Source: Lachnospiraceae bacterium
Lineage (GTDB): Bacteria; Bacillota; Clostridia; Lachnospirales; Lachnospiraceae
Assembly: GCA_017450485.1 (NCBI GenBank)
Contig: JAFSTN010000019.1
Coordinates: 1 to 64,000 of the forward strand
Direction: 5' to 3'
DNA: 64,000 bases
In this document: in pieces, positions 2,426-19,868 of the stretch
Position numbering within the stretch: position 1 is the stretch's first letter
How the letters are laid out: every line of letters starts with the position of its first letter
Made by a program: the position numbers and the translations under genes
The notes under the pieces: generated by a model
The model's database searches: none
What the model saw: the letters and a program-made list of their open reading frames with translations, nothing else
What the model was told of the DNA's origin: nothing

Positions 2426-3135
2426 ATCCCGAGTTCCTCTGCCTTAAGTCTTTCTTTGGTGGTATTCTCCACAACCCTTCCGTCTTTAATGCGCACCAGT
2501 CTGTCCGCCATGCCTGCTATCCTCTCGTCGTGTGTGATCATGACGATAGTCGTGTGATACCGCTCATTTACGGTCTGAAGGACCCGGAGGACATCCCTGG
2601 TAGATGCGGAATCGAGAGCACCCGTCAGTTCATCGCAGAGCAAAAGTGCGGGATTTTTCACGAGAGCCCGTGCGATCGAGCACCTCTGCTGCTGTCCTCC
2701 CGAAAGCTCCGAAGGAAAATGCGTCATGTGTCTCTCAAGCCCCAGCACCTGAAGGAGTTCCGTCTCATCAAGAGGATCTTTCGCTATATCCTTAACGACT
2801 CTGACATTCTCGATCACGTTCAATTCCGGGATGAGATTATAAGCCTGAAAGACCATGCCGATTTTCTCGCGGCGGTAGTCCGTAAGCTGCTTCCTGCCAA
2901 GAGATGTGATCTCAAGGCCGTCCACGGTTATCGTACCGCTGTCCACTCGGTCAAGTCCTCCAACCATGTTAAGCAATGTACTCTTACCTGAGCCGGAAGG
3001 ACCGAGTATCACGCAGATCTCTCCCTTTGCAATATCCAGACTCACATCATCCAGTGCCTTGACTGCGGACTCGCCCTCTCCGTACTTTCTGCAGGTGTTT
3101 TTGACAGAAATATGTTCCATGGTATCCCGTCTCAT
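2422..3135 (-). CDS. ABC transporter ATP-binding protein, MacB/LolD type
   Basis: ATPase partner of the downstream FtsX-like permease. It has Walker A GPSGSGKST, the Q-loop in VFQAYNLIP, the signature LSGGQQQR, and Walker B LLLCDE, where the usual DEPTGALD reads DELTGALD; the catalytic Glu is kept. The switch His is in MITHDE. The ATG at 3135 overlaps the upstream stop as ATGA and is preceded by GGAAGAA, so I prefer it. ATGs at 3144 and 3120 are also possible. The protein is cytoplasmic and membrane-associated. Its closest relatives in the window are the ATPase at 9602-10309 and, more distantly, that at 50711-51325. Confidence 0.9.
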   Translation of the reverse strand: MRRDTMEHISVKNTCRKYGEGESAVKALDDVSLDIAKGEICVILGPSGSGKSTLLNMVGGLDRVDSGTITVDGLEITSLGRKQLTDYRREKIGMVFQAYNLIPELNVIENVRVVKDIAKDPLDETELLQVLGLERHMTHFPSELSGGQQQRCSIARALVKNPALLLCDELTGALDSASTRDVLRVLQTVNERYHTTIVMITHDERIAGMADRLVRIKDGRVVENTTKERLKAEELGI

Positions 3136-4046
3136 TTCTTCCATTCATTGATCGCGCGGGAAATCTTAATATCCAGATCTTCTCTTGTCTTCCTGCATTC
3201 TGTGGGGTAGTCTTTTCCCGCTTTGAACAGGCGGATAAACAAGCTGCTGCCTATGGGAAGCATCATTTTAAGAAGACTCTCGGGGAAGATAAAATGGGTT
3301 CCGTGCTCATAGATAAGGATTTCCGGAGTGCACGCATTCTCCTTTTCGTTAAGTCTCGCCTCCATCCGTCTTATATACTTTGCAGTGTCCCACAGAACAT
3401 CGTCCTCGGCTCCTATCAAAAGAAGCTTTCCCTGTATCCTTTCGACCTTGATCTTCTCTTCTTCCCTGACAGGATGAAGTCTCTCGGACTCATCGAACAT
3501 TTTCCGTGAGGCCAAGAAATCCCCGCCTGCTTTCGATTCTTCCTTTATCTTACGGCCATACTCAGGATGCCGGTAAGCATAGGGCAGATACGGCAGGGGC
3601 TTCCCCTGCCAGCTGAGAGTAGATTCATTCTCCCCGGGCCATTCTGTATAACCGTCCCTTTTGCCTTGATAAAATCCCTCCATGACAAAGTCGCTTGGTG
3701 AAAGTGCCATAGTAAGCGTTATCACCGGATAGTAGGACGCAGCCACAAGTGAAAGCATTCCGGTAGTAGATGCGCCGACGATACCGAATTTGCCGATCCC
3801 TTTTCGCCTCATATATTCGATGGCATTGCCGATACGCTCCAGAGGCATATTGTGATGGCCATAGTCCTTGTGAGCAGGTGACAGAGTCATGACACTGACT
3901 CCATATTTTTTATGGACCCACTTTACGGCACACTTTGCCATATAGTCTTCACAATCATCACCGAGCATCGCAATGAGTGCTGCATGCGCTCCATCATACG
4001 GCCAGTAACAGCCGTAAAAACCTTCGGTTATCTTTTCTTTGATCAT
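3132..4046 (-). CDS. Alpha/beta hydrolase, BAAT/acyl-CoA thioester hydrolase C-terminal-like
   Basis: A 304-residue cytoplasmic protein with no signal peptide. The nucleophile elbow is GAS in FGIVGASTTG (about residue 92), in the position that BAAT-family enzymes use. A C-terminal acid region (IGAEDDVLWDT) and a His in YEHGTHFIFPES, followed by Pro, match the BAAT_C pattern of Ser/Cys-Asp-His. Family members hydrolyse or transfer acyl groups from acyl-CoA thioesters, or are uncharacterised. It lies 28 bases after the ATC-hydrolase-like gene and overlaps the following ATPase gene, within the feo-led operon. The substrate cannot be inferred. Confidence 0.7.
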   Translation of the reverse strand: MIKEKITEGFYGCYWPYDGAHAALIAMLGDDCEDYMAKCAVKWVHKKYGVSVMTLSPAHKDYGHHNMPLERIGNAIEYMRRKGIGKFGIVGASTTGMLSLVAASYYPVITLTMALSPSDFVMEGFYQGKRDGYTEWPGENESTLSWQGKPLPYLPYAYRHPEYGRKIKEESKAGGDFLASRKMFDESERLHPVREEEKIKVERIQGKLLLIGAEDDVLWDTAKYIRRMEARLNEKENACTPEILIYEHGTHFIFPESLLKMMLPIGSSLFIRLFKAGKDYPTECRKTREDLDIKISRAINEWKK

Positions 4047-4889: not shown

Positions 4890-5648
4890 TCATCTTCTGC
4901 AGACGCTCTCGATTCCCCTGACGAACTTCTCCGGATTAAACGGAGCCAGTCCGCCATGGCCTACGTTATCTATCTTTCTGAATATCGTATGCGGGAAAAT
5001 CTTCCTGATATACGCGACATCCCAGCGTCTGTCATGTACTTCCCTCTCTGCGACCCAGTATTCAATGTTCAAACAATCGGTATGGACATCCTCAGGCATG
5101 GAGTAATTGTTGCATGAGTCGAAGGTATTCCATATAGTCCGGGCACTTATCATATCAAGCACCTTTGCCGCATACTGCACATCCTCCTCAGACAGCTCAT
5201 CGGTCGAAAAAGCCTTTTCAAGCAGCTTCGCACCTCCGATCTTGCCTGTGCTTATCATCAGGAAATCCCTGACAGCGATAAGCCGCGTGATGAATCTCGG
5301 CAGCTGATACGGTGTGATCCCTCCGTCTATTACCGCATTTCTGATATGAAGCCTGTTGTCGGCCAGTATCCTGGTCACTATACTGCCCCCCATAGAGCAG
5401 CCGTATATGCACGTCACATCTGTCAGGCCTTTTTCGATAAGCTTATCTTCCAGATCCTTTGCGATCTCTTCCACGCTCGTAAAGTCGCTTTTTACATCGG
5501 GGTCGTATCCGGGGATAGCCGGGATGACCAGATGATATTTATCCTCCATCAGCGGGATCACGTACTCGAAGTAATCCCACATCACTATGGACGGATGTAT
5601 CAGCACGACAACCCTGCTGTTTACTTTTCCGAATTCATGTAATGTCAT
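4890..5648 (-). CDS. Alpha/beta hydrolase fold protein
   Basis: A soluble alpha/beta hydrolase of about 252 residues. It has an oxyanion-loop region LIHPS, a nucleophile elbow YGCSMGG, and a C-terminal His in DNVGHGGLAPFNPEKF, where a catalytic His is expected. The ATG at 5648 is preferred to the one at 5711 because it has a Shine-Dalgarno-like GGAAGGA about 11 bases upstream and does not overlap the methyltransferase gene deeply. It may act on esters or thioesters; the substrate is unknown. It is part of the feo-led operon, between the methyltransferase gene and the small ORF. Confidence 0.75.
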   Translation of the reverse strand: MTLHEFGKVNSRVVVLIHPSIVMWDYFEYVIPLMEDKYHLVIPAIPGYDPDVKSDFTSVEEIAKDLEDKLIEKGLTDVTCIYGCSMGGSIVTRILADNRLHIRNAVIDGGITPYQLPRFITRLIAVRDFLMISTGKIGGAKLLEKAFSTDELSEEDVQYAAKVLDMISARTIWNTFDSCNNYSMPEDVHTDCLNIEYWVAEREVHDRRWDVAYIRKIFPHTIFRKIDNVGHGGLAPFNPEKFVRGIESVCRR

Positions 5649-5655
5649 GCCGGCT

Positions 5656-6441
5656 CTATTTCCTTCCCACCAGCAGAGCTGAGCCGGAGAGGCCCATCCA
5701 GGCAGCTTCAAATCCGGTCATGAACTTACCTTTTGTCGTATCTATCAGGTGAACTTCTTCATATCCCATATCTTTGAGTTTATGGACGAATTCCTGCATG
5801 TTCCCGTATTTCATATTCGACATGATGTCGTGTATGGCGAAGCATCCGCCTTTCTTCAGAGTGCGCAGCGTCTCAAGCAGGATCGCCTGCCGGCCACGGC
5901 TCGGGATATTATGATATACATAGTTGCTGGTCACGGCATCGAACGTCTCGTCTTCAAACGGAAGTTTTACCGCGTCACCCTGCATAAAGGTCGTATTGCT
6001 TACACCTTCGGCTTTGGAATTGTTCTCGCACAGAGCCTTGTTAAAGGATGCATACTCCTTGCCCCATCTGTCTATTCCCGTAAATGTCGCGTTGGGATTT
6101 CTTTTTGCGCATGCTATGGTAAGCGCCCCGCTTCCGCAGCCTATATCAAGCCCTTTTCCTCCGTCGGGTATATTCACATATGATGCAACTCCGTCTATTA
6201 TCTGCCTGGACATCTTCCTTTTGCCGTCATATGAAAAAGCTCTGTACATCAGGAACATCCAGACCGTTACGATCAGAAAGAAGATCGTTGCGACACCAGA
6301 AATGACTACCGTAACTGTCTTTACGTTTGCGGATATCGGTAAGGCCGCAAATACTATGGTTAGGATCAGGAATACAGTTGCTGCGCATGCAAATCCTGCA
6401 ACCATCCCCTTCGGCATCCAGTTCTTATAATCTGCTTTCAT
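5656..6441 (-). CDS. Membrane-anchored class I SAM-dependent methyltransferase
   Basis: A 261-residue protein with two N-terminal membrane helices (about 12-35 and 43-68) followed by a Rossmann-type methyltransferase domain. Motif I is GLDIGCGSGAL, the acidic residue after strand 2 is in FTGIDRWG, and the post-motif region contains FDAVTSNYVYHNIP. This resembles UbiE/MenG-like or lipid methyltransferases, but the substrate is unknown. The membrane anchor suggests a hydrophobic or membrane substrate. It lies 28 bases downstream of the HMA protein gene in the same operon. Confidence 0.8.
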   Translation of the reverse strand: MKADYKNWMPKGMVAGFACAATVFLILTIVFAALPISANVKTVTVVISGVATIFFLIVTVWMFLMYRAFSYDGKRKMSRQIIDGVASYVNIPDGGKGLDIGCGSGALTIACAKRNPNATFTGIDRWGKEYASFNKALCENNSKAEGVSNTTFMQGDAVKLPFEDETFDAVTSNYVYHNIPSRGRQAILLETLRTLKKGGCFAIHDIMSNMKYGNMQEFVHKLKDMGYEEVHLIDTTKGKFMTGFEAAWMGLSGSALLVGRK

Positions 6442-6469: not shown

Positions 6470-6844
6470 TCACATTATTGCCATAAAACTGCGCATCGTA
6501 TACCCGGCCCGCGATATTGTTTCGGAAATCTCGCTCTCTGTTTCCTCATGCTTCGACAGCAGGTTTACCTGCTTCCTTGCCACGTCGGCAGTTGCCCATC
6601 TTCCTTCGGTCTTATTTAACGCATTTTCAATCCTCCGGGCACAGTTTGAGCAATGCATGCCATCGACATCCAGAAGATACCTGTACGGATAATTGGCAGT
6701 GTTCTTATCCTTGATTTTTATACGTTTTTCGTTCGGAGTCTTAGTTCCGCAACATGCAGATCCGTACCGTATCCTTCTGACCGTGCCGTATACCGCAGCC
6801 GCAACTATCAGGATAAGTATTGCTATTATAATCGCATTTCCCAT
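6470..6844 (-). CDS. Membrane-anchored heavy-metal-associated (HMA) domain protein, FezC-like
   Basis: A 124-residue protein with one N-terminal membrane helix (about 3-21), a CC pair at residues 31-32, and an HMA fold (about 55-122) with the metal site MHCSNC (Cys65 and Cys68). HMA domains bind soft or transition metal ions and pass them to P1B ATPases, and proteins of this layout commonly accompany metal ATPase or feo genes in Firmicutes. In ferrosome clusters a comparable HMA protein is called FezC; applying that name here is inference from context. It is separated from the FtsX gene by 52 bases. Confidence 0.75.
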   Translation of the reverse strand: MGNAIIIAILILIVAAAVYGTVRRIRYGSACCGTKTPNEKRIKIKDKNTANYPYRYLLDVDGMHCSNCARRIENALNKTEGRWATADVARKQVNLLSKHEETESEISETISRAGYTMRSFMAIM

Positions 6845-6896
6845 AACTTATTTCCTCCCGTCTTTGATCTGTGTTTACATAAGCTCAGAGCTGTAT

Positions 6897-9590
6897 TCAC
6901 TCCATGTTCTTAAGCGCCTCATTCAGAGGTATTCTTCTGATACGTATATAATCGACAACCGACACGGCAAGATAGCCGAATAACAGGTATCCGACAGACA
7001 GGATCATAGATGACGTCCTCATATAGTACGAAAAATATCCGTCCATCTTGAGCATGAATACCTTAAACACCATGGTCATGAGAAAATATCCGGCCGCAAA
7101 CCCCGCTACCGCGCATAACACAACCACGAATGCGGTAGGTATGATATAGAGAGAGCCTATCTCCGTGTTCTTAAATCCGAGGATCTTGACCATGGAGATC
7201 GGGCGTTCGTTTCGCTCTATGATGATCTTTGTCAGAAGATATATCAGAGCCGCTGCGAGGACGATCAGTACATATTTAAAAGCATTTACGATCCCTCCGA
7301 GAGAATGGTCGAGCTGGGTGGCGACCTTGGAAATATCTTCGGCGGTTATCACCGTGGCAATATCCTGTTCGTCTATATCGGTTATTTCGTTTCGCGAGAA
7401 GTATCCGGTAAATTCGTCCGGCTTTTTGTCAAACACCTCGAGAAATGTGTCCTGATCCATGAATACCGCTATACCGCCCTCGTAATCTATCGTGCCGTAT
7501 ACCGTAAATTCATACGTCTTATTCTCATATTCTTCGTGCAGAGCGATAGTATCGCCTGTGTCCAGCTCGAATTTCTCCATGAATGCGGACGACAGATATA
7601 CATTTTTTTCCGGAAGTTCGCCGGGCATGTTCACATATGAGCTGTCAGGTAAGATACCGTATACTGTCACGCTTTCATCCTGGCCGCTTCCCATGCCGGT
7701 GCGGAACGAACCGGCCTCCTTGGGGTACAGCAGGGTCTTCGCACTGAAACGCTCGGCACTGCTCTCAGAGGTTTCGATCACATTACCTTCAGAATCCTTA
7801 TACCCCATCAGCATATACTGATAATCTGCGAATATCATCTCCGGTGCCCTGCTCCCATAATGGTCGAGCGAGTCCGGTAAACCAAACGCAAAACACATCA
7901 TCAGTTCTATGAATATAACTCCGAATATCAGCACGACATAGTTCGGCAGATTCTGAAGCATGACTCTTAACCTGAATCTCCTGAGGAACGACCATGCCGG
8001 TATCCTCCTTGCCTTGGAATGTCTGGCTTTCGTAAGATCATGTCTGAGAAACTGAAGCGGAGATAACTGCAGTTTCTTCACAATGACTATGAGATTGATG
8101 AAAAACATCAGGACAAGAGGAATGACAGTCGTTTTCACAAGTGCAGTCGGACTCCATACCAGATGACATGACGGCAGACTGTAGCTTTCATAGTAAAGTG
8201 ACACGGCCAGGCCTCGAAAAGCGGTATATCCGAGCACGTTTCCGATCACGGCACCTATCAGCGTAACGGCGACAGGCAGGGACATGTAATGAAATGCGAG
8301 CTCATTTTTGCTGTATCCCGAAGCACGAAGAGTTCCTATCACGGAAGCCTCCTTATCGATGGTGTTGCTTATGGTGATCGCAAAAATAAACGCGATCACG
8401 GCGATAAGGATGTAGCAGAGGATGCTCGTTGCACTCGAATCCCCCTCGATGTCGGAAGGTGCGAAATTGCTCGCCTGCCTTAAATATTCCGGGAGATAGC
8501 TTTTGAGCTCATTATCATGAACGAGAGTCTGAGTGATCAGGGATTTAAGGAAATTCTCCGATGTATCGGCCTGTTCTATCTTATCCGCGGGTTCGGTCTC
8601 ATACACATACGCATAGTTATAATGGATCCTGGCCCGCAGCAAGTCAAACGCTTCCGGAGTCACCATTCCGACATCAAATCCGAACGCATCAAACATGAGA
8701 TCCGTATTGGATTCGTGCAACGTCAGATAGTGGACATAGGACAAAAGTCCAACAACGGTAAATTCCTTACCGCCGACAGTGATCGTATCTCCCAGACTTA
8801 TACCCATGTTATCGGCATGCATCCGGTCGATGGCGATCTCCGATCCGGTCACGGGAGCACGCCCTTCGTTAAAGGACGCCTGATCGATCGACGTATCACT
8901 TCTGAATACCCTTACCGTCGCATCCTTGGTTCCGTCATTGTCGACATCCTCGGATTCGTCTCTGTAGAAATCTTCATAAATGCTTACCCGAACGGCCGAA
9001 AATCCTTCGTCATCAAGACCATATTCTTCCGAGATCTCATCCCATTCATCATCAACCGCTTCCCTGACCGCATCATGTGCTTCTTCGTAAGCCTCGTCAG
9101 AAGCTTCGGTAAACTCATCGGATTCTCTCGCCTCTTTTATCGCACTGTCATAGTTTTCATCTACAGCTTCATCTATCCGGTCAAGGATCATATCCTCATC
9201 GGTAATGCCGTATGCTTCACACTGCGTGCGGACAGCTTCTTCGATAGTATTTCTCACCTGTTCATCGAGTTCTTTTTCGATCGCTTCCGAAACCTCGGAA
9301 TCTGCTTCCTCCATGCCCTTCTCCAGATAATACTGCCGCACATCCGCCATTTCACCGGTACTTATATCTGTAAGGAGTTCGGGATTGGCCTTTTTTGACA
9401 GCTCAAAGGAACCGTCTTCGAGCTTAAGCTCCTCTTTTCCCTGTTCGATCGAAGCCAGCATGCTGTCATGACCAACATACATGCCGGAAACAAGTCCGAT
9501 CATCAGGACAAGAAAAACTATGATCACAAGGTACTTATGCCAGTCGGAGATCAGTTCCCTTGGTATACGCCTTATAAGCGGATTTTTCAT
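6897..9590 (-). CDS. FtsX-like ABC permease with long acidic helical ectodomain
   Basis: An 897-residue permease. The ATG at 9590 is preferred because AAGGAGG lies 6 bases upstream. It has a TM segment near residues 20-45, then an unusually acidic, Glu/Asp-rich helical stretch (about residues 65-200) before the usual MacB-like periplasmic-type domain, then FtsX membrane blocks centred near 390-510 and 780-890. The motif VIGTLRASGYSKNEL is a typical FtsX cytoplasmic loop. Its ATPase partner is immediately upstream. It probably exports or senses an envelope-associated substrate; co-transcription with feoAB and metal genes suggests a link to iron or metal stress. Confidence 0.85.
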   Translation of the reverse strand: MKNPLIRRIPRELISDWHKYLVIIVFLVLMIGLVSGMYVGHDSMLASIEQGKEELKLEDGSFELSKKANPELLTDISTGEMADVRQYYLEKGMEEADSEVSEAIEKELDEQVRNTIEEAVRTQCEAYGITDEDMILDRIDEAVDENYDSAIKEARESDEFTEASDEAYEEAHDAVREAVDDEWDEISEEYGLDDEGFSAVRVSIYEDFYRDESEDVDNDGTKDATVRVFRSDTSIDQASFNEGRAPVTGSEIAIDRMHADNMGISLGDTITVGGKEFTVVGLLSYVHYLTLHESNTDLMFDAFGFDVGMVTPEAFDLLRARIHYNYAYVYETEPADKIEQADTSENFLKSLITQTLVHDNELKSYLPEYLRQASNFAPSDIEGDSSATSILCYILIAVIAFIFAITISNTIDKEASVIGTLRASGYSKNELAFHYMSLPVAVTLIGAVIGNVLGYTAFRGLAVSLYYESYSLPSCHLVWSPTALVKTTVIPLVLMFFINLIVIVKKLQLSPLQFLRHDLTKARHSKARRIPAWSFLRRFRLRVMLQNLPNYVVLIFGVIFIELMMCFAFGLPDSLDHYGSRAPEMIFADYQYMLMGYKDSEGNVIETSESSAERFSAKTLLYPKEAGSFRTGMGSGQDESVTVYGILPDSSYVNMPGELPEKNVYLSSAFMEKFELDTGDTIALHEEYENKTYEFTVYGTIDYEGGIAVFMDQDTFLEVFDKKPDEFTGYFSRNEITDIDEQDIATVITAEDISKVATQLDHSLGGIVNAFKYVLIVLAAALIYLLTKIIIERNERPISMVKILGFKNTEIGSLYIIPTAFVVVLCAVAGFAAGYFLMTMVFKVFMLKMDGYFSYYMRTSSMILSVGYLLFGYLAVSVVDYIRIRRIPLNEALKNME

Positions 9591-9601
9591 TTCATGCCTC
9601 C

Positions 9602-10309
9602 TTACCACTCGAGCTCGGAAGCAGGGGTTTTGACTTCGTTGATGTCATTATGACGGACAACCCCGTCCCTTAATTTGATCACATGATCCGCCATATACCT
9701 TATGGCTTCATTATGAGTGACCATGATGACCGTACTGCCGTACTTGCTGTTGCAGTCTTCTATAAGTGCAAGGATCTCCTTGGACGTCTTATAGTCGAGT
9801 GCTCCGGTCGGTTCGTCGCACATCAGAATGTCCGGATTCTTTACCACTGCCCTCCCTATGGATACTCTCTGCTGCTGACCTCCGGACAGCTGGTTCGGAT
9901 ACTTATATTTATGTTCCTGAAGACCGAGAGTCGTGATCACCTCTTCAACATCCAGCGGATCGTCGGAAAGATAGGCGCCGACTTCGATATTCTCTTTAAC
10001 ATTCAGATTCGGTATGAGGTTGTACATCTGAAAAACATAACCAAGATGCTTTCTTCGATATAACGTAAGCTGTTTTTCCGTCATATCCTCGAGTTTGTCT
10101 CCGTTAATGCTCACATATCCGGAATCGGGTGTATCGATACCGCCTATGATATTGAGCAGAGTGGATTTCCCGGAGCCGGAGGGACCGAGGAGCACGCAGA
10201 ACTCGCCTTTCTTCACCGTGAAATCCATGCCTCTGAGCACATCCTGTTTTGCTTCACCGGAGCCAAAGCTTTTGTTCAGACTCCTAATCTGCAGAAAACT
10301 CTCATCCAT
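9602..10309 (-). CDS. ABC transporter ATP-binding protein, MacB/LolD type
   Basis: A 235-residue ATPase with Walker A GPSGSGKST, Q-loop VFQMYNLIP, signature LSGGQQQRVSIGRAV, Walker B ILMCDEPTGALD and switch MVTHNE. Its start overlaps the 3' end of the P-type ATPase gene by 8 bases, and its stop is 11 bases before the start of the FtsX-like permease. It therefore belongs to the operon and energises that permease. It is similar in sequence to the ATPase at 2422-3135, which suggests duplication of the transporter within one operon. Confidence 0.92.
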   Translation of the reverse strand: MDESFLQIRSLNKSFGSGEAKQDVLRGMDFTVKKGEFCVLLGPSGSGKSTLLNIIGGIDTPDSGYVSINGDKLEDMTEKQLTLYRRKHLGYVFQMYNLIPNLNVKENIEVGAYLSDDPLDVEEVITTLGLQEHKYKYPNQLSGGQQQRVSIGRAVVKNPDILMCDEPTGALDYKTSKEILALIEDCNSKYGSTVIMVTHNEAIRYMADHVIKLRDGVVRHNDINEVKTPASELEW

Positions 10310-12413
10310 TCCCCGTTGCCTCCATCCTGTTGTCTTTCGTTCCTATAAGGTGCGTCATACTCTTCAGTCCTATCGCCACGGTAGATCCGTTATGAAGCAT
10401 CGCGGATGTCGCGGGTGGCATAACGCCGGCTATGCCAAGTCCTATGAGTGCCGTATTGAATCCCACTATGGTTCTGTAATTGAACCTGATCCTTTTCATC
10501 AAAAGAGTACTGATATCTCTTAATACAACAATGCTTTCAAGATCATCGGAGCCTATCGTGATATCAGCTATCTGCCTGGCTATTTCCGCGCCGTCGCTGA
10601 TTGCTATTCCTGCATCCGATGCGGACAGGGCCGGGGAATCGTTGATCCCGTCGCCCACCATGATCACCCGGTGTCCCTCTTTCTTCATTTTCTCCACATA
10701 TCCGGATTTATCCTCGGGAAGAACTTCCGAGTAGTATTCGGTGATCCCCGCTTCGGAAGCGATCCTGGCTGCGGTTCTTTCGCTGTCACCCGTCATCATC
10801 ACGATATGCTCAAACCCGCGTGCCCGAAGTTTCCCGACCACATCCGGTGTTTCTTTTCTCATCGGGTCTTCTATCAGGATGCAGGCCGACAGTTTACCGT
10901 TCTTGGCAAAATACAGATGAGAGTATTCGTCCGGCAGTGCATCGAACAGCTCTCTCCTGTCATCATCTATGACAACTCCTTCGTCTTCAAACACAAAATG
11001 ATAGCTTCCTATAACGGCTCTTTCATTACCGATCTCGGAAGCAATACCATGCGCAACTATATATTCCACACTTGTATGAAGTTCATCATGCAGCAGACCT
11101 TTCTCCAGTGCTTTGTCAACCACGGCTACGGCAACGGAATGCGGGAAGTGTTCTTCGAGACACGCTGCCTGTCTTAACAGCTCGTCTTCGGATTCAGCGC
11201 AGAACGATACAACTCCCGCCACGGCCGGTTTTGCTTTTGTGATCGTGCCGGTCTTGTCAAAAATGATCGTATCCGCATCAGCTACAGCTTCAAGAAACTT
11301 TCCTCCCTTGACGGTCATGTCATACTCCGCTGCTTCTTTTATGGCGGATAATACCGATATCGGCATCGCCATCTTGAGTGCGCATGAATAATCAACCATG
11401 AGTACGGATACCGCCTTGGTAACATTCCTGCTTATCGCCCATGTCAGCCCGGCGGCAAGCAGAGTATACGGAACAAGCCTGTCTGCAAGCCTCTCTGCTT
11501 TGCTCTCCAGAGATGACTTCAGTTTCTCGGACTCCTCGATCATCTTTACTATCTTGTCAAAGCGCCCGCATCCTTCGGTCTGGGTCACCCTGATGGCCAG
11601 GTCGCCTTCTTCCACGACAGTTCCGGCAAATACGCTCATGCCGCATCCCTTGTGTACCGCTGCGGACTCCCCGGTCATGGAAGCCTGATTGATCATTGCA
11701 TCACCGTCAACGATCTCTCCGTCAAACGGGATCATATTTCCCATTCTCACAACGACTCTGTCGCCGCATTCGATCGCGGATGCATCTGTCTGTACTTCTC
11801 CGCTGTCCGTCAGCAGCCATACCGTGTCGATGTTCAGAGACATCCTTCTCGCCAGATCGTCAACCGATCGCTTATGCGTCCATTCCTCCAGAGTGTCTCC
11901 GATCTTCAGGAGAAACATTACATTTGATGCGGTATTATAATCTCCGATCAAAACTGCGGAGCTGATAGCGATCGCATCCAGCAGTTCAACCTGCAGACGT
12001 CTGTTTTTTAGAGTCTTAAGCCCGCGCCATATGTATCTGACTGTTTTAATGATGTCCAGCACTCTGCGTATGGCAAACGGGAGTATTAAACGTCTTGCAT
12101 AATGGAGTATCACCGTGGTCACCACCCTGTCGTGGTAACCGGCACTGAGTTCTCTGCCGGAGTACTCAAATACGCGCTCCGGCACCTGAACGTCATCAAA
12201 CGAAAAAGCTCTGACTATCTCTGTGATACGTGACCTGTCACAGTCAAAAAAGATCACCGCATCCGCTGTCCGCTCGTATACACGGACATCGCTTATCTCA
12301 TCAAAGCCCCTTAAGTAGTATTCGAGGATATCCGCTTCTCTGAAGCTAAGACGTTTCACGGGCAGATGCAGACGTATCCTGTTTTTTAGTTCATGTCTGA
12401 TCGTAAAGTTCAT
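10302..12413 (-). CDS. Heavy-metal-translocating P-type ATPase with SCA motif, FezB-like (P1B-6 candidate)
   Basis: A 703-residue ion pump. The N-terminus (about 1-75) resembles an HMA_2-type domain without a CxxC metal site. Later landmarks are the actuator TGES (247-250), the phosphorylation site DKTGT (386-390), the P1B HP dipeptide (about 424-425), and the hinge GDGINDSPA (587-595). The intramembrane metal motif is SCA (343-345) followed by Pro351, instead of CPC, CPH, SPC or TPC. I associate this with the P1B-6 group, which includes FezB of ferrosomes; that assignment needs alignment. Position after feoAB and a small FezA-like gene supports iron as substrate. It overlaps both neighbours. 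Confidence 0.85.
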   Translation of the reverse strand: MNFTIRHELKNRIRLHLPVKRLSFREADILEYYLRGFDEISDVRVYERTADAVIFFDCDRSRITEIVRAFSFDDVQVPERVFEYSGRELSAGYHDRVVTTVILHYARRLILPFAIRRVLDIIKTVRYIWRGLKTLKNRRLQVELLDAIAISSAVLIGDYNTASNVMFLLKIGDTLEEWTHKRSVDDLARRMSLNIDTVWLLTDSGEVQTDASAIECGDRVVVRMGNMIPFDGEIVDGDAMINQASMTGESAAVHKGCGMSVFAGTVVEEGDLAIRVTQTEGCGRFDKIVKMIEESEKLKSSLESKAERLADRLVPYTLLAAGLTWAISRNVTKAVSVLMVDYSCALKMAMPISVLSAIKEAAEYDMTVKGGKFLEAVADADTIIFDKTGTITKAKPAVAGVVSFCAESEDELLRQAACLEEHFPHSVAVAVVDKALEKGLLHDELHTSVEYIVAHGIASEIGNERAVIGSYHFVFEDEGVVIDDDRRELFDALPDEYSHLYFAKNGKLSACILIEDPMRKETPDVVGKLRARGFEHIVMMTGDSERTAARIASEAGITEYYSEVLPEDKSGYVEKMKKEGHRVIMVGDGINDSPALSASDAGIAISDGAEIARQIADITIGSDDLESIVVLRDISTLLMKRIRFNYRTIVGFNTALIGLGIAGVMPPATSAMLHNGSTVAIGLKSMTHLIGTKDNRMEATGNG

Positions 12414-12652
12414 TCTTCGCCTGAATCTTCCTTCCCGGCTCTCTCCTCGTTTATCGCCTTGGCTTCCTCGTAGATATCACTGCAGTTTTCCTGCAATGTG
12501 GTAACCTGATCCATCACACAGTCTTTGGCTCTCAGAACCCCGGCTGTGCAGTGTGTATATATCTTCTTGGCATCCTTGGAGGACAAAAGTTTGATCCCCT
12601 CCAGTCCAAACAGAGTTCCCAGTGCAAATAATCCGACACCTTTCAGTTTCAT
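12410..12652 (-). CDS. Small protein with N-terminal hydrophobic glycine-rich segment (DUF6110-like, FezA-like candidate)
   Basis: An 80-residue protein. Residues 4-24 form a hydrophobic glycine-rich stretch (GVGLFALGTLFGLEGIKLL) followed by a basic patch (SSKDAKKIY), a Cys-containing helix and a charged tail. This looks like a short membrane-inserted hairpin or anchor. It resembles the DUF6110 family as I remember it, whose members sit next to metal P-type ATPases. Ferrosome loci encode a small membrane protein (FezA) beside FezB, and this gene has the same position, overlapping the ATPase start by 4 bases. FezA identity is inference from size, hydrophobicity and context. Confidence 0.65.
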   Translation of the reverse strand: MKLKGVGLFALGTLFGLEGIKLLSSKDAKKIYTHCTAGVLRAKDCVMDQVTTLQENCSDIYEEAKAINEERAGKEDSGEE

Positions 12653-12667
12653 ATGATCATCCTCCTA

Positions 12668-14488
12668 TCATCCTAAAAACGGCAATGCAATGTGATATAC
12701 GATACAGGACAGGATCAACGCGGCCAGAATATAGAATCCGGCAGTTTTAGCTGTCCACTTAAGCGAATGAGATTCTTTGTACGTAGTGGAAAGAGCCATA
12801 AGGCAGGGAACACTGAAAGTGCACGCAAACATAAATGCCAGTGCCTCGGCTCCCGATATGGTCTGAGTCATCATCTGCGAAAGAGCCGATGTATCCACGC
12901 CGCCCGTGGCAGCATTGAATGCAACATCAGCCACATTACTCTGTCCGGCAAATACGGCATTCAGCGTACCGAGTACGGCTTCCTTGGCAAAAGCCGCAGT
13001 GATGAATGCCATGAACGTACGCCATCCCATACCGAAGATCCTGGTCACGGGCTCAATGAATGTTCCCACCTTATACAGCAGAGAACTCTCTACATTTCCT
13101 GAAGGGCTGAACGAGAACGCCCAGAAGATGATCGATACCAGCGTGACTGTCTTAAGTGCGCGTTTGAACATGTCGAAGCACTTGATCCATGCTTCCTTGA
13201 TGATGTATTTCCAATGAGCTTTATGATAAGGGGGAAGTTCCATGATCATACCCGACCTGGTACTCTCGGGTACAAGTTTGCCGCCGAATACACGGGATAC
13301 TATAAACATCAGTACAAAGATATAAAGAATAATGCCTATGCACACCAGTGCTGTTCCCCATGCAGGGAAGAACATACCGGAAATAACCGGAATGATGCTC
13401 CAGATCGAAGCGCAGGGTACTGCCCATACGACCATCATAGTGAGCATCTTCTGGCCCCAGTTGTCCATGACTCTGGTCCCACTCGCACCGCCGATAGTAC
13501 ATCCCATGCCCATCAGGATCGGAGCAACAGCTTTGCCCTGAAGTCCGAGCTTGGACAGCGCACCGTCAAACTGATAAGCGGCTCTGGCCAGGAATCCTAT
13601 CTCCTCCAGAAATCCGAAGACCACATTTACACCGAAGACAAATGCCGACATCGAGATGCAGAAATAGAATGTATTGGGAATGAGCAGACTGAATACGGAT
13701 ACAAGCCAGGGATGAACATTCAGGCCGTTCAGGAACCCGGCTATGGGAGCACCAAGTACCTGAGGAAGCATGCCTGCCACACTCATGAAAGGTGACATTA
13801 TCAGCATCGCAGCGAGAAATCCCACTAAAATGATCAGGATCGTCATCACTTTTCCCCAGAAAGGTTTAAGCATGATCCTGTCGAATCCGGATATCGTATA
13901 GGTCTTTTCGGATGTGCTTGCTGCACCTTCAAGTATGCTGTTGATCCAGGCATATTTTGCATTTGCATCTGTCATAGACTCAGTCACGAGCTTATGCGGT
14001 GTCTTAAGTTCACCTGCGATCAGGGATTTTAATCCGTCAAAGCCTTTCCCGTCCGCAGCTGTAAAAGGAAGCACCGGTATGCCGAGTCTCTCCGAGATCA
14101 GCTTATCATCGATCTTTTTGCCCTGTGATGTCGCGACATCCATCATATTTAATATCAGGATCGAAGGAACATCCATCGAGGCGAAATCCGCGAGCATATA
14201 CATGCTTCTTTCGAGCTGTGAAGCATCTACGAGAACGCATACCAGATCGGCCTGTCCGCTTTTGATGAACTGCTCCGTAATGATCTCCTCATCGGAGTTT
14301 CCCGACAGTCCGTAGCTTCCCGGCAGATCCACTACCGTGTATTTTTTGTTGTTATAGCTGTATGTGCCTTCGCTTTTCTCTACTGTCTTGCCCGGCCAGT
14401 TACCCACGTGCTGCCTGGATCCGGTCAGCTGATTGAATACGGTTGATTTACCGGAGTTGGGCTGTCCCAACAGTGCTATACAGTTCAT
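12668..14488 (-). CDS. feoB: Ferrous iron transport protein B
   Basis: A 606-residue inner-membrane Fe(II) transporter. The N-terminal G domain has G1 GQPNSGKST, G3 DLPGSYG and G4 NMMD; a helical region follows, then Gate/core membrane segments from about residue 215 to the C-terminus. Motifs such as GMGCTIGGASGTRVMDN and VPCLMALSTTYKES match FeoB core and gate regions with conserved Cys. It overlaps feoA by 4 bases (ATGA) and is 15 bases from the small FezA-like gene. It imports iron under anaerobic conditions; coupling with a putative ferrosome ATPase suggests direct handling of imported iron. Confidence 0.95.
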   Translation of the reverse strand: MNCIALLGQPNSGKSTVFNQLTGSRQHVGNWPGKTVEKSEGTYSYNNKKYTVVDLPGSYGLSGNSDEEIITEQFIKSGQADLVCVLVDASQLERSMYMLADFASMDVPSILILNMMDVATSQGKKIDDKLISERLGIPVLPFTAADGKGFDGLKSLIAGELKTPHKLVTESMTDANAKYAWINSILEGAASTSEKTYTISGFDRIMLKPFWGKVMTILIILVGFLAAMLIMSPFMSVAGMLPQVLGAPIAGFLNGLNVHPWLVSVFSLLIPNTFYFCISMSAFVFGVNVVFGFLEEIGFLARAAYQFDGALSKLGLQGKAVAPILMGMGCTIGGASGTRVMDNWGQKMLTMMVVWAVPCASIWSIIPVISGMFFPAWGTALVCIGIILYIFVLMFIVSRVFGGKLVPESTRSGMIMELPPYHKAHWKYIIKEAWIKCFDMFKRALKTVTLVSIIFWAFSFSPSGNVESSLLYKVGTFIEPVTRIFGMGWRTFMAFITAAFAKEAVLGTLNAVFAGQSNVADVAFNAATGGVDTSALSQMMTQTISGAEALAFMFACTFSVPCLMALSTTYKESHSLKWTAKTAGFYILAALILSCIVYHIALPFLG

Positions 14489-14712
14489 GCCTCTACCTCC
14501 GCTACTTCGATCATGTCACAGTCTCTCCTGTTGAGCGCAAGAAGTGTCTCTCTCGCATACACGAGTACCGGCATCTTCCTGTCGTTCTTCACCACCTGAA
14601 ACCGGGCACCCTCGGTCAGACCGACTGAGGTGATCCGTTTTAAGAATCTCTCGTCTCTGCCGAGAGACTTCACCGTTCCGGTCCTGTCAGCTTTCATTTC
14701 ACTTAGTTTCAT
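14485..14712 (-). CDS. feoA: Ferrous iron transport protein A
   Basis: A 75-residue SH3-like cytoplasmic protein that assists FeoB. The pattern LKRITSVGLTEGARFQVVKNDRKMPVLV matches the FeoA core, in which a glycine-rich turn follows a hydrophobic helix. It is the first gene of a run of fourteen closely packed minus-strand genes. The palindrome at 14789-14808, 77-96 bases upstream of the start, is a candidate operator. An AAAGG sequence lies about 15 bases before the ATG, so the Shine-Dalgarno is weak. Confidence 0.92.
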   Translation of the reverse strand: MKLSEMKADRTGTVKSLGRDERFLKRITSVGLTEGARFQVVKNDRKMPVLVYARETLLALNRRDCDMIEVAEVEA

Positions 14713-14788
14713 TTCTCATCCAGCCTTTCTTTGATCATGTCATTTTATGTATATAAATGCCTCTTTGGGTTAGTCTCGCATCAGACTC

Positions 14789-14808
14789 GGGTTAGTTGCG
14801 GCTAACCC
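14789..14808. promoter_or_regulatory. Palindromic candidate operator upstream of feoA
   Basis: The perfect inverted repeat GGGTTAG-N6-CTAACCC. A further direct half-site GGGTTAG lies at 14767-14773, and a smaller inverted repeat (AGTCT-N6-AGACT) at 14772-14787. The core TTAG-N6-CTAA resembles DtxR/IdeR/MntR-family sites more than a Fur box. The same core occurs at 15379-15396 in the promoter of the neighbouring gene, which supports one shared metalloregulator. The regulator itself is not in the window. Confidence 0.6.
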
Positions 14809-14814
14809 AATGGG

Positions 14815-14852: not shown

Positions 14853-15353
14853 CTATACAAACTGTACGCAGATCCACGCGGCAAGTGCAGAAGCCGCCGG
14901 GAAGATAACAAGAAGCTTCAGTAACTGGCTTTTGATGTTATACCCGTATTTCCTGCCGCTGTATACGCTGTCCACTTCCGGAAAATAATACTGAAAGAAT
15001 TTGAACTTCGTGAGCAGAAAATAATCAAAGCAGATCATGTCGTATAGCTTGTATATGGTAAAAATGAGAACAAATCTCAGAAAGAACTGAAAGAACGTAA
15101 AACCGCTGCGTATGCCGTCCCATATGGATATCACGCCTGTACCCAATATCATGAGGATACTGAATATCATGAGCGTCCAGCCTATAGTCCTGGCTCCGTA
15201 GAACAGTTCTTTATCCCTCGGAACTATCAGTTCCTGAGCTTCCTTTGGTGCCGAAGAAAAGAACTTCTTGTCCTGGATAAAGGCAACCGCCGAAAGCAAC
15301 ATCAGGGATATGGCAGCAGAAAAAACAATTGCGAGAAATATGGTCAGTAACAT
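14853..15353 (-). CDS. Membrane protein of unknown function, probably co-regulated with feoAB
   Basis: A 166-residue protein with an N-terminal membrane segment (about 2-26), two to three further helices (about 57-77, 85-105 and 145-165) and no recognised domain. A good Shine-Dalgarno (AGAAAGGA) is 6-7 bases before the ATG at 15353. The promoter carries the same GGTTAG-N6-CTAAC palindrome as the feoA upstream region. This implies expression under the same metal condition, so it may be an accessory membrane protein of the iron system. The function is unknown. Confidence 0.7.
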   Translation of the reverse strand: MLLTIFLAIVFSAAISLMLLSAVAFIQDKKFFSSAPKEAQELIVPRDKELFYGARTIGWTLMIFSILMILGTGVISIWDGIRSGFTFFQFFLRFVLIFTIYKLYDMICFDYFLLTKFKFFQYYFPEVDSVYSGRKYGYNIKSQLLKLLVIFPAASALAAWICVQFV

Positions 15354-17516: not shown

Positions 17517-19868
17517 TTATTCATTCACGCTGATACTCTGAAGCCCACCCGAGAATGAAGTATTCTCTGGTCTCGCACCGTATAAAACGGGCGTTCCGGA
17601 TGCAAGCTTGATATTACAGATCGAAGTCTTCGACTTTATGGTGGCGTTCATATCCCTGGTGCCGAGTGCAAGCACATTATTCCCTTCGCCGCGCAGATTG
17701 ATCACGGATTCTGTAAACCTGATAACCACATCTCCTTCAGTGGCCCCTATCAGATAGAGTTCCTGACCGTTGGCAAGTATGGATACTTCACTGTCGGATA
17801 TCTCTATATTGCCGCTGCTCTTACCCACGCCGCCTATGGCAGCGATATGGGATCCTGCACACAGAATATTCATATTCGCATTTCTGATGAAGGTATGCTG
17901 GTCACCCTCCATGCTGCCTATGCCTATGCCCTTCTCTATCTTGACGTCCAGCTGGATCTTGCAATCCATGATCTCTATCAGCGGCTTTCCGCTTACTGCA
18001 CCCAGCGCAACGGCCTTGCCGCTGGCAGGCTCTATCCTGACCATACCCGAAAGAATATGCACACCGCTGTTTCTGCCGAAGCAACCTCCGCCGATGCCTA
18101 TCCCTTCATCTGCTTCCACAAGGATATCCAGAGCTCCTGTGCCCCGCCAGGTAATATCTCCGACCTCGGAATTGCATGCATTGCCTATGGCGAAGCTGGA
18201 TACGCCCTGTGATCTGATCTGCAGATTACCGTCACCTTCTATGATCAGTTTACTGCTGTCAGGCACACGTATACCGTATTTTTTCATACGGCTCTCACCC
18301 TCAAGGACCAGTGTCAGCTCACTGCCTGTGCCGATCTCGATACATGGCAGCTGCTGCGTACTCTCAATAAATACATCTCTGATGGTCAGCCGGCATTTCG
18401 TACCGTCCTTTATCTTGATAGACATCTCAGCCGAATAGCCGGTATTACCTACCAGAGTAAACTCTTCCTGTTCGATCAGGATGCCCGTGTATTTCTCCAG
18501 AGCCAGTCTCATGATCGGGAGCTCTCTTTCTCCGTTTACGGTATAGATGCGTCTGACTTCCAGATTCGTACCCTTGACGGAGGATGCTATGATCTCCGAA
18601 CGTATATCCGAATCTATGGATTCCAGGACATCGAATGAAGGTCTGGCAGTATAGTATCCCTGTATATAATCGACACCGAGTTCTATTACGGCTTTGAGTT
18701 CCGCGCTCGTCTCAACACCCTCTGCAAGTGTTTTGACTCCGTTTGTCTTGGCAAATTCTATAATGCTCTTAACGAAATGTTGCTTCTTGGTCTCCTCATG
18801 GATATTGGACACAAGCAGCCGGTCGATCTTGAGGAAATTCGGCAGATAGCTCAAGAGACTCGAAGTGTTGGAATACCCGGTACCGAAATCGTCTATAGCC
18901 AGTCCGTACCCATCTCTGGCACTTCTTTCAAGCAGAACGGAGAGTTCCCGGTCCTTAAACTCGGTATTCTCCGTGATCTCTATCACTACATTAGGCAAAT
19001 ACTCGCTGTATTTCCTCAGTAGGTCGTTATAATCCTTCTTATTTAACTGTGAACCGGGAATACTGTTGATAAATATCTTCCTGTCGCCGAACGCCGTGAG
19101 TCTCTGAACGTAGAGGTCCATGACATTGAACATCGTCTGTTTCTCAATGGTATAGAGAAGATTCTTACGCGTGGCACAGTCAATAACTGCCATCGGGGAT
19201 ATATTGACGCCGGCATCGGTCCTCATCAGGGCCTCATATCCCGCAATCTCTCCGGAAGCGGCATCCACTATGGGCTGAAAGGCATAGCTGAACTGATTAC
19301 CGGCTATGATCTCCATGATGATGTCGTCTCCCGCTACCGCCATGTCCTCCGGCACGGAATAAGTCAGCATCTCGGGAAGCATTTCAAGCTCAACTACATT
19401 AAGATCCCTACCTGATACCATCAGCTTATCGGTAAATCCGGTCTCCGCAAATCCCATTTCCTTAAATGCTTTCAGTGAAAAATCATTATCCGCAGACAAA
19501 AGGATCGTCACTCCGGTAGCCTTCAACAATTCAAAAGCATATTTAAGTGCCAGTGAGACCATTCCGAATCCGTATCCGTGACCGTAACATGACGGATTCA
19601 GAAGGAAGAATCCCATCCGAAGCTTGTTCAGATCATTATTCGAATAACGGAGTGTGATATAACCGACCAGCTTATCGTCATCTGCAGCAATCAGCTGAAA
19701 TATCGTCTTATCATCGAAAGCCTTCCCTGAAAAAGCGTTAAAAGTATCTACGTCTAAAGGGTAATCACCCAGCTCACCCAAAGACCATTCAATAAACGTT
19801 TTCTCTGAATCGATCCATGAGACCACTTCGGGGGCATCAGTATTCTTATAAGGTCTTAATCTGAGCAT
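17517..19868 (-). CDS. GNAT - EAL - repetitive beta-domain fusion protein (c-di-GMP phosphodiesterase)
   Basis: A 783-residue soluble protein with three parts. Residues 1-165 look like a GNAT acetyltransferase of the RimJ/RimL type (NPSCYGHGYGFGMVSLALKYAF forms the acetyl-CoA loop). Residues 185-430 are an EAL phosphodiesterase with EALMR (about 210), FINSIP, EITEN, DDFGTGYSN (about 322), KID, AEGVE (about 380) and QGY, all key residues present. Residues 440-783 are rich in short beta-like repeats with GIGIGG, AVALGA, GIGIGS and IAAIGG turns, like a right-handed beta-helix. A Shine-Dalgarno AGAGGA precedes the ATG. It probably degrades c-di-GMP in response to a bound or acetylated ligand. Confidence 0.85.
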   Translation of the reverse strand: MLRLRPYKNTDAPEVVSWIDSEKTFIEWSLGELGDYPLDVDTFNAFSGKAFDDKTIFQLIAADDDKLVGYITLRYSNNDLNKLRMGFFLLNPSCYGHGYGFGMVSLALKYAFELLKATGVTILLSADNDFSLKAFKEMGFAETGFTDKLMVSGRDLNVVELEMLPEMLTYSVPEDMAVAGDDIIMEIIAGNQFSYAFQPIVDAASGEIAGYEALMRTDAGVNISPMAVIDCATRKNLLYTIEKQTMFNVMDLYVQRLTAFGDRKIFINSIPGSQLNKKDYNDLLRKYSEYLPNVVIEITENTEFKDRELSVLLERSARDGYGLAIDDFGTGYSNTSSLLSYLPNFLKIDRLLVSNIHEETKKQHFVKSIIEFAKTNGVKTLAEGVETSAELKAVIELGVDYIQGYYTARPSFDVLESIDSDIRSEIIASSVKGTNLEVRRIYTVNGERELPIMRLALEKYTGILIEQEEFTLVGNTGYSAEMSIKIKDGTKCRLTIRDVFIESTQQLPCIEIGTGSELTLVLEGESRMKKYGIRVPDSSKLIIEGDGNLQIRSQGVSSFAIGNACNSEVGDITWRGTGALDILVEADEGIGIGGGCFGRNSGVHILSGMVRIEPASGKAVALGAVSGKPLIEIMDCKIQLDVKIEKGIGIGSMEGDQHTFIRNANMNILCAGSHIAAIGGVGKSSGNIEISDSEVSILANGQELYLIGATEGDVVIRFTESVINLRGEGNNVLALGTRDMNATIKSKTSICNIKLASGTPVLYGARPENTSFSGGLQSISVNE

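Follow-up and report, generated by a model that had tools for sequence, protein, structure and literature searches.

A Lachnospiraceae gene run that probably joins ferrous iron import, ferrosome-type storage and an accessory ABC exporter behind a predicted iron box

In a 64,000-nucleotide stretch of a Lachnospiraceae bacterium genome (hereafter the window; assembly GCA_017450485.1, contig JAFSTN010000019.1, positions 1 to 64,000), seven open reading frames (ORFs) on the minus strand, from 14712 to 6470, encode FeoA, FeoB, a small DUF6110 protein, a P1B-type ATPase, an ATP-binding cassette (ABC) ATPase, an FtsX-type permease and an HMA domain protein, in this order. The same genes, order and coordinates had been given in an earlier reading of the DNA letters (the sequence-only reading), and all seven ORFs were recovered in the ORF listing and named by Pfam or NCBIfam profiles. 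We consider it probable that these genes constitute an iron-responsive operon in which Fe2+ import is joined with ferrosome storage and with an accessory ABC exporter under the same control. Ferrosomes, bacterial organelles recognised as a class only recently, have been shown in few species. The fezAB pair is of an already known kind; the union of feo, fez and ABC-FtsX genes, with the exporter as a recurring partner, looks new, and no report of a link between ABC-FtsX and ferrosome genes was found in the open-licence literature searched.

The ATPase contains the SCA motif in transmembrane (TM) helix 4 (DYSCALKM), which we take to be a mark of P1B-6 pumps, and the HN motif in TM6 (LHNGST), and its N-terminal domain is devoid of CxxC. 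The HN motif has been described as a P1B-6 hallmark (PMC9374683). In an alignment of 70 rows from fez-type loci, HN is invariant (70/70) and SCA nearly so (66/70, with CCA in the remaining 4/70); CPC without HN is found in Escherichia coli CopA and ZntA, in the two other P1B pumps of this genome (contigs C31 and C27) and in three of the four other Clostridioides difficile pumps aligned, the fourth being a distant P-type ATPase with neither motif. The window ATPase is, over its residues 1-691, 53% identical (368/690) to a pump of C. difficile HC132 (locus L153), the next-best pump being 31% identical (13 matches in all). In a quick tree of 50 rows, which has no bootstrap and contains several long branches, the smallest clade that includes both the window and L153 pumps consists of 21 rows (87 in the SH-like approximate likelihood ratio test, SH-aLRT) and is nested within a 26-row clade (98). 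All 38 rows labelled as DUF6110-linked (among them L191 and L197, beside which DUF6110 is undetectable) form one group (SH-aLRT 99), with three plasmid pumps from YtxH operons as the sister group, and the CopA/ZntA-type pumps are set apart (90 at the split).

On these sequence comparisons, the ATPase appears to be a FezB-type pump like that of C. difficile, and the fezAB-like label is well supported. This agrees with the P1B-6, FezB-like identity proposed in the sequence-only reading, for which the counter-case was an ATPase clustering with Cu, Zn or Co pumps and a small protein unlike FezA: set against CopA- and ZntA-type pumps, the ATPase does not cluster with them, and its small partner does resemble the FezA-type protein. 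That the ATPase is an exporter of Cu, Zn or Co and no FezB at all seems highly improbable: CopA and ZntA profiles do score it at 223-278 bits, and a PDB search returned copper, cadmium and zinc pumps as the best solved relatives (no P1B-6 entry was recognised among the 25 best listed), but these profile scores are far under the respective cut-offs, SCA and HN stand in place of CPC, and the pump belongs to a separate clade, in a tree that leaves out the Co pumps (P1B-4). As a separate observation, the hydrophobic helices of the ATPases of the window, L153, L075 and L076 are far weaker than those of E. coli CopA and ZntA: segments exceeding 1.5 in Kyte-Doolittle hydropathy number 1-2 in these pumps, compared to 7 in CopA and 5 in ZntA.

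The 80-amino-acid protein encoded directly upstream of the ATPase has, by hydropathy, a single TM helix at its N-terminus, which includes a GxxxG motif (GTLFG), and DUF6110 is the only family that matches it above the cut-off. The small protein that precedes the C. difficile pump is also a DUF6110 protein (83 bits), 51% identical to that of the window over 70 amino acids, which bears out the prediction of a FezA-like protein at this position. In C. difficile, the first Gram-positive ferrosome case, both FezA and FezB are required for ferrosomes, and the fez genes are repressed by Fur (PMC12574912). In Desulfovibrio magneticus, ferrosomes arise when starved cells are supplied with iron again (PMC12748827). 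A DUF6110 gene is located within 700 bp of the pump in 101 of 114 P1B-6 loci, many of which were chosen via DUF6110 (two duplicate named loci were dropped from this set, and seven were fetched for a nearby FtsX), and is present in 39 of the 45 loci picked by the ATPase alone; L190, among the six without it, has a pump cut at its start. The gene was detected in 168 of 396 sampled Lachnospiraceae genomes (166 above the cut-off), and storage of the ferrosome type may therefore be widespread among the commensals with which C. difficile shares the gut and its iron; a DUF6110 match was not found in G005 (88% complete). Coprococcus comes and a Butyrivibrio are among the commensals that carry DUF6110-P1B-6 loci. 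A search of plasmids gave only two Deinococcus records as DUF6110 relatives, and a PDB search with the DUF6110 protein or with FtsX gave chance matches only.

DUF6110 has been described as akin to PacL/DUF1490, without the predicted metal motif of the latter, and as typically encoded with P1B6 pumps (PMC9374683), and it has been proposed that such PacL-like proteins build platforms in the membrane (PMC9374683, PMC13043812). These descriptions speak for an iron efflux platform, in which DUF6110 would do for the P1B-6 ATPase what PacL does for CtpC, stabilising and clustering it in the plasma membrane, and excess Fe2+ would be exported from the cell, with no vesicles formed. The same holds for the position of a Rhodococcus DUF1490-linked pump, which falls outside the DUF6110-linked group and groups with the P1B-6 rows, outside them (SH-aLRT 90). 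We nevertheless regard such a platform as an unlikely alternative, given that the iron-repressed C. difficile pair makes ferrosomes (PMC12574912) and that the tail of the 80-amino-acid protein is acidic, lacks His, ends with EERAGKEDSGEE and contains no His-rich metal motif; neither DUF1490 nor the C-terminal metal motif, the two features by which PacL is recognised, was found in this protein. Moreover, an efflux pump sharing an operon with an Fe2+ importer would presumably be futile, induced import being coupled with induced export, and storage is favoured over efflux for this reason.

From feoA to the HMA gene, adjacent genes either overlap or are no more than 52 nt apart (Table 1). The overlaps amount to 4 nt between feoA and feoB, 4 nt between the DUF6110 and ATPase genes, 8 nt between the ATPase and ABC genes and 7 nt between the ABC and FtsX genes with the listed GTG start (none if an ATG 18 nt inside is used); feoB is separated from the DUF6110 gene by 15 nt and FtsX from the HMA gene by 52 nt. 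The HMA gene is followed, after 28 nt, by a methyltransferase gene and then by an alpha/beta hydrolase gene, into which the run probably extends. In loci from the same genus, the order is kept from feoB through the hydrolase gene in L048, from feoA to FtsX, where the contig ends, in L060 (its ATPase is 97% identical to that of the window), and from DUF6110 to FtsX in L057, with feoB absent from its 19 kb; in L059 and L066, the DUF6110-ATPase pair occurs with neither feoAB nor ABC-FtsX alongside. The closeness of feo to fez genes, which the sequence-only reading had placed in one operon here, recurs elsewhere: in 36 of the 114 P1B-6 loci, feoB is no more than 6 kb away from the pump. Regulators of the DtxR family are encoded in 15 of these loci and a close FtsX near the pump in 14. 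When unlabelled neighbours on the same strand were grouped by single linkage, the largest cluster had members in 23 loci (L036 and L155 being one contig), and the one member scanned belongs to the Fur family (PF01475). The genome encodes a second FeoB of 800 amino acids (contig C31, named from sequence), which is longer than the FeoB of the window.

The predicted iron box 5' of feoA reads TTGGGTTAG-CCGCAA-CTAACCCGA (two half-sites with an N6 spacer) and was found by reading the upstream sequence and then by comparison; an extra half-site, CTAACCCAA, is located at 14765-14773. Among the fetched loci and the window, the half-site pair TTAGGTTAG/CTAACCTAA at spacing 6 yields 18 sites with at least 15/18 matches, compared to 6 sites at spacing 1, 0-2 at eleven other control spacings and 0-3 in shuffles. 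A search with the pattern TTNGGTTAGN6CTAACCNAA at up to 2 mismatches identified 21 sites in the 1.77 Mb of fetched loci (window excluded), of which at least four (L049, L055, L060 and L149) had suggested the pattern; the reversed pattern gave 0 sites, and about 0.7 would be expected from the family-wide rate, assuming a mean genome of 2.95 Mb. Boxes precede feoA or feoB in L046, L055, L060, L064, L143 and L254, the DUF6110 gene in L049 and DtxR genes in L274 and L055, and in L143, a box at 3 mismatches precedes a DtxR gene that adjoins DUF6110. Boxes are also found before ABC-FtsX genes, at 31 bp in L037, at 15 bp in L284 and at 194 bp in L265, the last two having neither fez nor feoB within 6 kb; about 7 of the 21 sites precede unlabelled genes. 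The 2.62-Mb genome to which the window belongs contains two sites at up to 3 mismatches, the other one being 39 bp before a FeoB_associated gene, and a single DtxR-family match, which is located some 1 kb away from the second feoB. The predicted box supports, as far as sequence goes, a common iron control of the operon. A Fur box (consensus TGATAATNATTATCA) was also considered and rejected: of the 10 matches at up to 3 mismatches in the window (5.4 expected), none is upstream of feoA. Genes for a DUF3793 protein and for a flavodoxin each recur in ten fez neighbour loci (L036 and L155 are counted as one contig), and iron-box sites are located near genes of these types in L036 (12135) and L276 (4026).

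The linkage of the ABC-FtsX pair with fez was assessed in the same 396 genomes, 103 of which encode a close FtsX (E <=1e-60), 64 together with DUF6110. Seven of the 64, in which the DUF6110 position was not among the matches listed, were dropped, and in 14 of the remaining 57 genomes, representing 12 genera, ABC-FtsX is located within 5 kb of DUF6110 on the same strand (14/14), compared to about 0.2 genomes expected by random placement (2.9 Mb genomes). The linked pair is upstream of DUF6110 in 7 genomes and downstream in 7. One FtsX match per genome was used, the linked FtsX of G998 being the second-best; a second FtsX match of G1207, about 10 kb away, was left uncounted, and the DUF6110 of G016 is under the family cut-off. 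In a quick tree built from 47 FtsX proteins, some of which had been picked for linkage, the linked state requires at least 11 changes, and the related label 'none' requires 12, of which 7 are forced by supported branches. The linked state is scattered over the tree, and therefore the linkage is not confined to one clade; it seems that the ABC-FtsX pair was brought to fez repeatedly.

These data bear on the alternative of an ordinary exporter of peptides or antibiotics, in which the pair would lie beside the iron genes by chance or through common descent of one cluster. FtsX-type permeases are indeed common (6 to 36 first-look candidates per genome with a match), for 29 of the 47 close homologues placed in the tree no fez or feoB gene is nearer than 6 kb, and the same run includes methyltransferase and hydrolase genes with no iron link. 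The excess of linkage across 12 genera in both orders, the repeated changes on the FtsX tree and the iron boxes before some of the pairs all argue against this possibility, and so do L254 and L285, where the pair adjoins feoB but fez is missing, and L144, where it is likewise beside feoB and DUF6110 is 6.4 kb away; accordingly, we consider an ordinary exporter rather unlikely. Still less likely, in our assessment, is a dedicated Lachnospiraceae ferrosome helper recruited to fez many times, in which, by analogy with LolCDE and MacB, ATP-driven extraction of lipid or protein might give the FezAB vesicle membrane its shape, load it or tether it, or a by-product might be exported. Two further arrangements deserve mention. 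In L285, a 60-amino-acid remnant of a P1B-6 C-terminus (11295-11477, minus strand; TM6, LHNGST) is found after an iron-box site, beside ABC-FtsX and feoB, and this is a probable lost fez locus. In L273 (G1131) and L274 (G1084), from two genera, feoA-feoB, ABC-FtsX, HMA, a second feoA-feoB and DUF6110-P1B-6 genes all run in one direction.

The ABC ATPase is DevA/MacB/LolD-like, with DevA as the best NCBIfam match (202 bits, cut-off 296), and no equivalog cut-off was reached among the 25 families listed. The permease has 8 TM helices predicted by hydropathy, arranged as two 1+3 halves, and its first extracellular domain is acidic (64 D/E versus 18 K/R in residues 41-240); at a guess, this domain could bind metal or a basic peptide. 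MacB is an ATPase fused to a 4-TM permease that works with a MacA partner. The sequence-only reading had described the pair as MacB-like, which has to be narrowed: with a separate ATPase, 8 predicted TM helices and no adjacent adaptor gene, it is not MacB proper. The MacB, LolCDE and DevBCA exporters resemble it in having an ATPase of one superfamily and the FtsX and MacB_PCD domains, and differ from it by the separate ATPase and duplicated 8-TM permease of 903 amino acids found here, by the missing adjoining adaptor gene and by NCBIfam cut-offs that were not reached. The ABC ATPase and the methyltransferase also gave PADLOC matches, which seem to reflect generic domains rather than defence.

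The HMA protein combines a CxxC motif (GMHCSNC) with an N-terminal membrane anchor, and its N-terminus resembles the FeoB_associated Cys-rich membrane protein family (PF12669) below the cut-off (19.2 bits, cut-off 27). HMA-like proteins are encoded within 6 kb of the pump in 19 of the 114 P1B-6 loci. The proposal in the sequence-only reading that this protein is FezC had to be abandoned, given that FezC of D. magneticus is a DUF4405-like heme cytochrome (PMC11334425) and DUF4405 was matched neither by the HMA protein nor anywhere in the 91%-complete genome to which the window belongs.

A probable scheme for the operon can be outlined. When iron is scarce, a DtxR-family repressor would leave the box before feoA, and FeoA and FeoB would then import Fe2+. 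The DUF6110 protein, as a FezA-like component, might cluster or recruit the FezB-like P1B-6 ATPase in the membrane that becomes the ferrosome vesicles, and the ATPase would build up a reserve by pumping Fe2+ into the vesicle lumen. The anchored HMA protein would probably hand over or buffer metal at the membrane near FeoB. For the ABC-FtsX pair, the likeliest role is that of a co-regulated accessory that works at the envelope, exporting or extracting a substrate, lipid-like or peptide, that would be of use when iron is limiting.

Several points weigh against this scheme. The kinship of DUF6110 to PacL of metal efflux platforms leaves, by analogy, room for an efflux role. In the literature examined, no ferrosome image from a Lachnospiraceae, this organism included, was found. 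The FezB reference in the ATPase comparison was that of C. difficile, with no named FezB from D. magneticus, R. palustris or S. putrefaciens among the rows, and the L153 pair was taken as C. difficile fezAB because it is the sole close pair there, not via the locus tag (the C. difficile genes are CD630_05910-05920; PMC11651100). At 3 mismatches, the reversed control of the box gives 4 sites in the genome of the window versus 2 for the true pattern, and in 150 genomes at 2 mismatches there are 179 sites versus 121 for the reversed pattern (100 versus 75 genomes with a site); this genome-wide excess is mild, and therefore single sites outside iron loci are untrustworthy. Finally, a close FtsX is missing from 104 of the 168 DUF6110 genomes, and 39 of the 103 FtsX genomes are without DUF6110; because most fez genomes have no close FtsX, the exporter appears to belong to the iron regulon as an accessory and not to be obligatory for the ferrosome.

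Comparison with known systems delineates what is shared and what is distinct. Six-gene fez operons are known in R. palustris and S. putrefaciens. The C. difficile fezAB locus shares with the window the DUF6110 gene directly followed by that of a P1B-6 ATPase of the same clade; in contrast, no relative of feoAB, ABC-FtsX or HMA was found among the listed neighbours of L153, whereas all of them are in one run here, and the regulator is Fur in C. difficile (PMC12574912) as opposed to the DtxR type predicted here. Fez-like operons with YtxH annotation, on plasmids of Azospirillum, Arcobacter and Vibrio (THAF190c), similarly encode a small protein and, directly downstream of it, a P1B-6 ATPase that has SCA and HN; that small protein is not DUF6110 (it is annotated as YtxH in two records, yet is below the Pfam cut-off or unmatched), the ATPases form a separate clade of three rows, and HMA-type genes are located upstream in Azospirillum. 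The mycobacterial PacL-CtpC operon also combines a small protein with one TM helix and a P1B pump (PMC9374683, PMC13043812), but, unlike here, PacL is a DUF1490 protein with a metal-binding tail and CtpC has CPC and exports zinc (PMC9374683). Since the importer, the storage pair and an ABC exporter that was apparently recruited many times share one predicted box here, the further needs of a ferrosome cell become testable, and an orphan ABC-FtsX family gains its first candidate pathway.

Table 1. Features of the feo-fez-ABC-FtsX gene run and of its predicted control site in the window
Feature	Position	Strand	Profile match or remark
Predicted DtxR-type iron box	14787..14810	-	75 bp 5' of feoA
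feoA	14485..14712	-	PF04023, 49.8 bits
feoB, 606 aa	12668..14488	-	TIGR00437, 371 bits (cut-off 316)
fezA-like DUF6110 protein, 80 aa	12410..12652	-	PF19605, 117 bits (cut-off 26)
fezB-like P1B-6 ATPase	10302..12413	-	TIGR01525 (heavy-metal P-type ATPase), 490 (cut-off 346)
ABC ATPase	9602..10309	-	PF00005 (ABC_tran)
FtsX/MacB_PCD permease, 903 aa	6897..9608	-	FtsX (two stretches) and MacB_PCD
Membrane-anchored HMA protein	6470..6844	-	PF00403, 39 bits
Methyltransferase, probable operon continuation	5656..6441	-	PF13847
Alpha/beta hydrolase, probable operon continuation	4890..5711	-	PF12697

Several other genes of the window, all on the minus strand, are worth recording. No tRNA was detected in the window and no tandem repeats between 6000 and 15000. 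The ORF upstream of feoA (14853-15353) encodes a protein of 166 amino acids with no Pfam or NCBIfam match at E 0.1. Further upstream, a 783-amino-acid protein (17517-19868) combines a GNAT acetyltransferase and an EAL domain with a C-terminal half that has no Pfam match. At the other end, a second ABC ATPase is encoded at 2422-3144, with acyl-hydrolase-like (BAAT_C) and ATC-hydrolase genes upstream of it.

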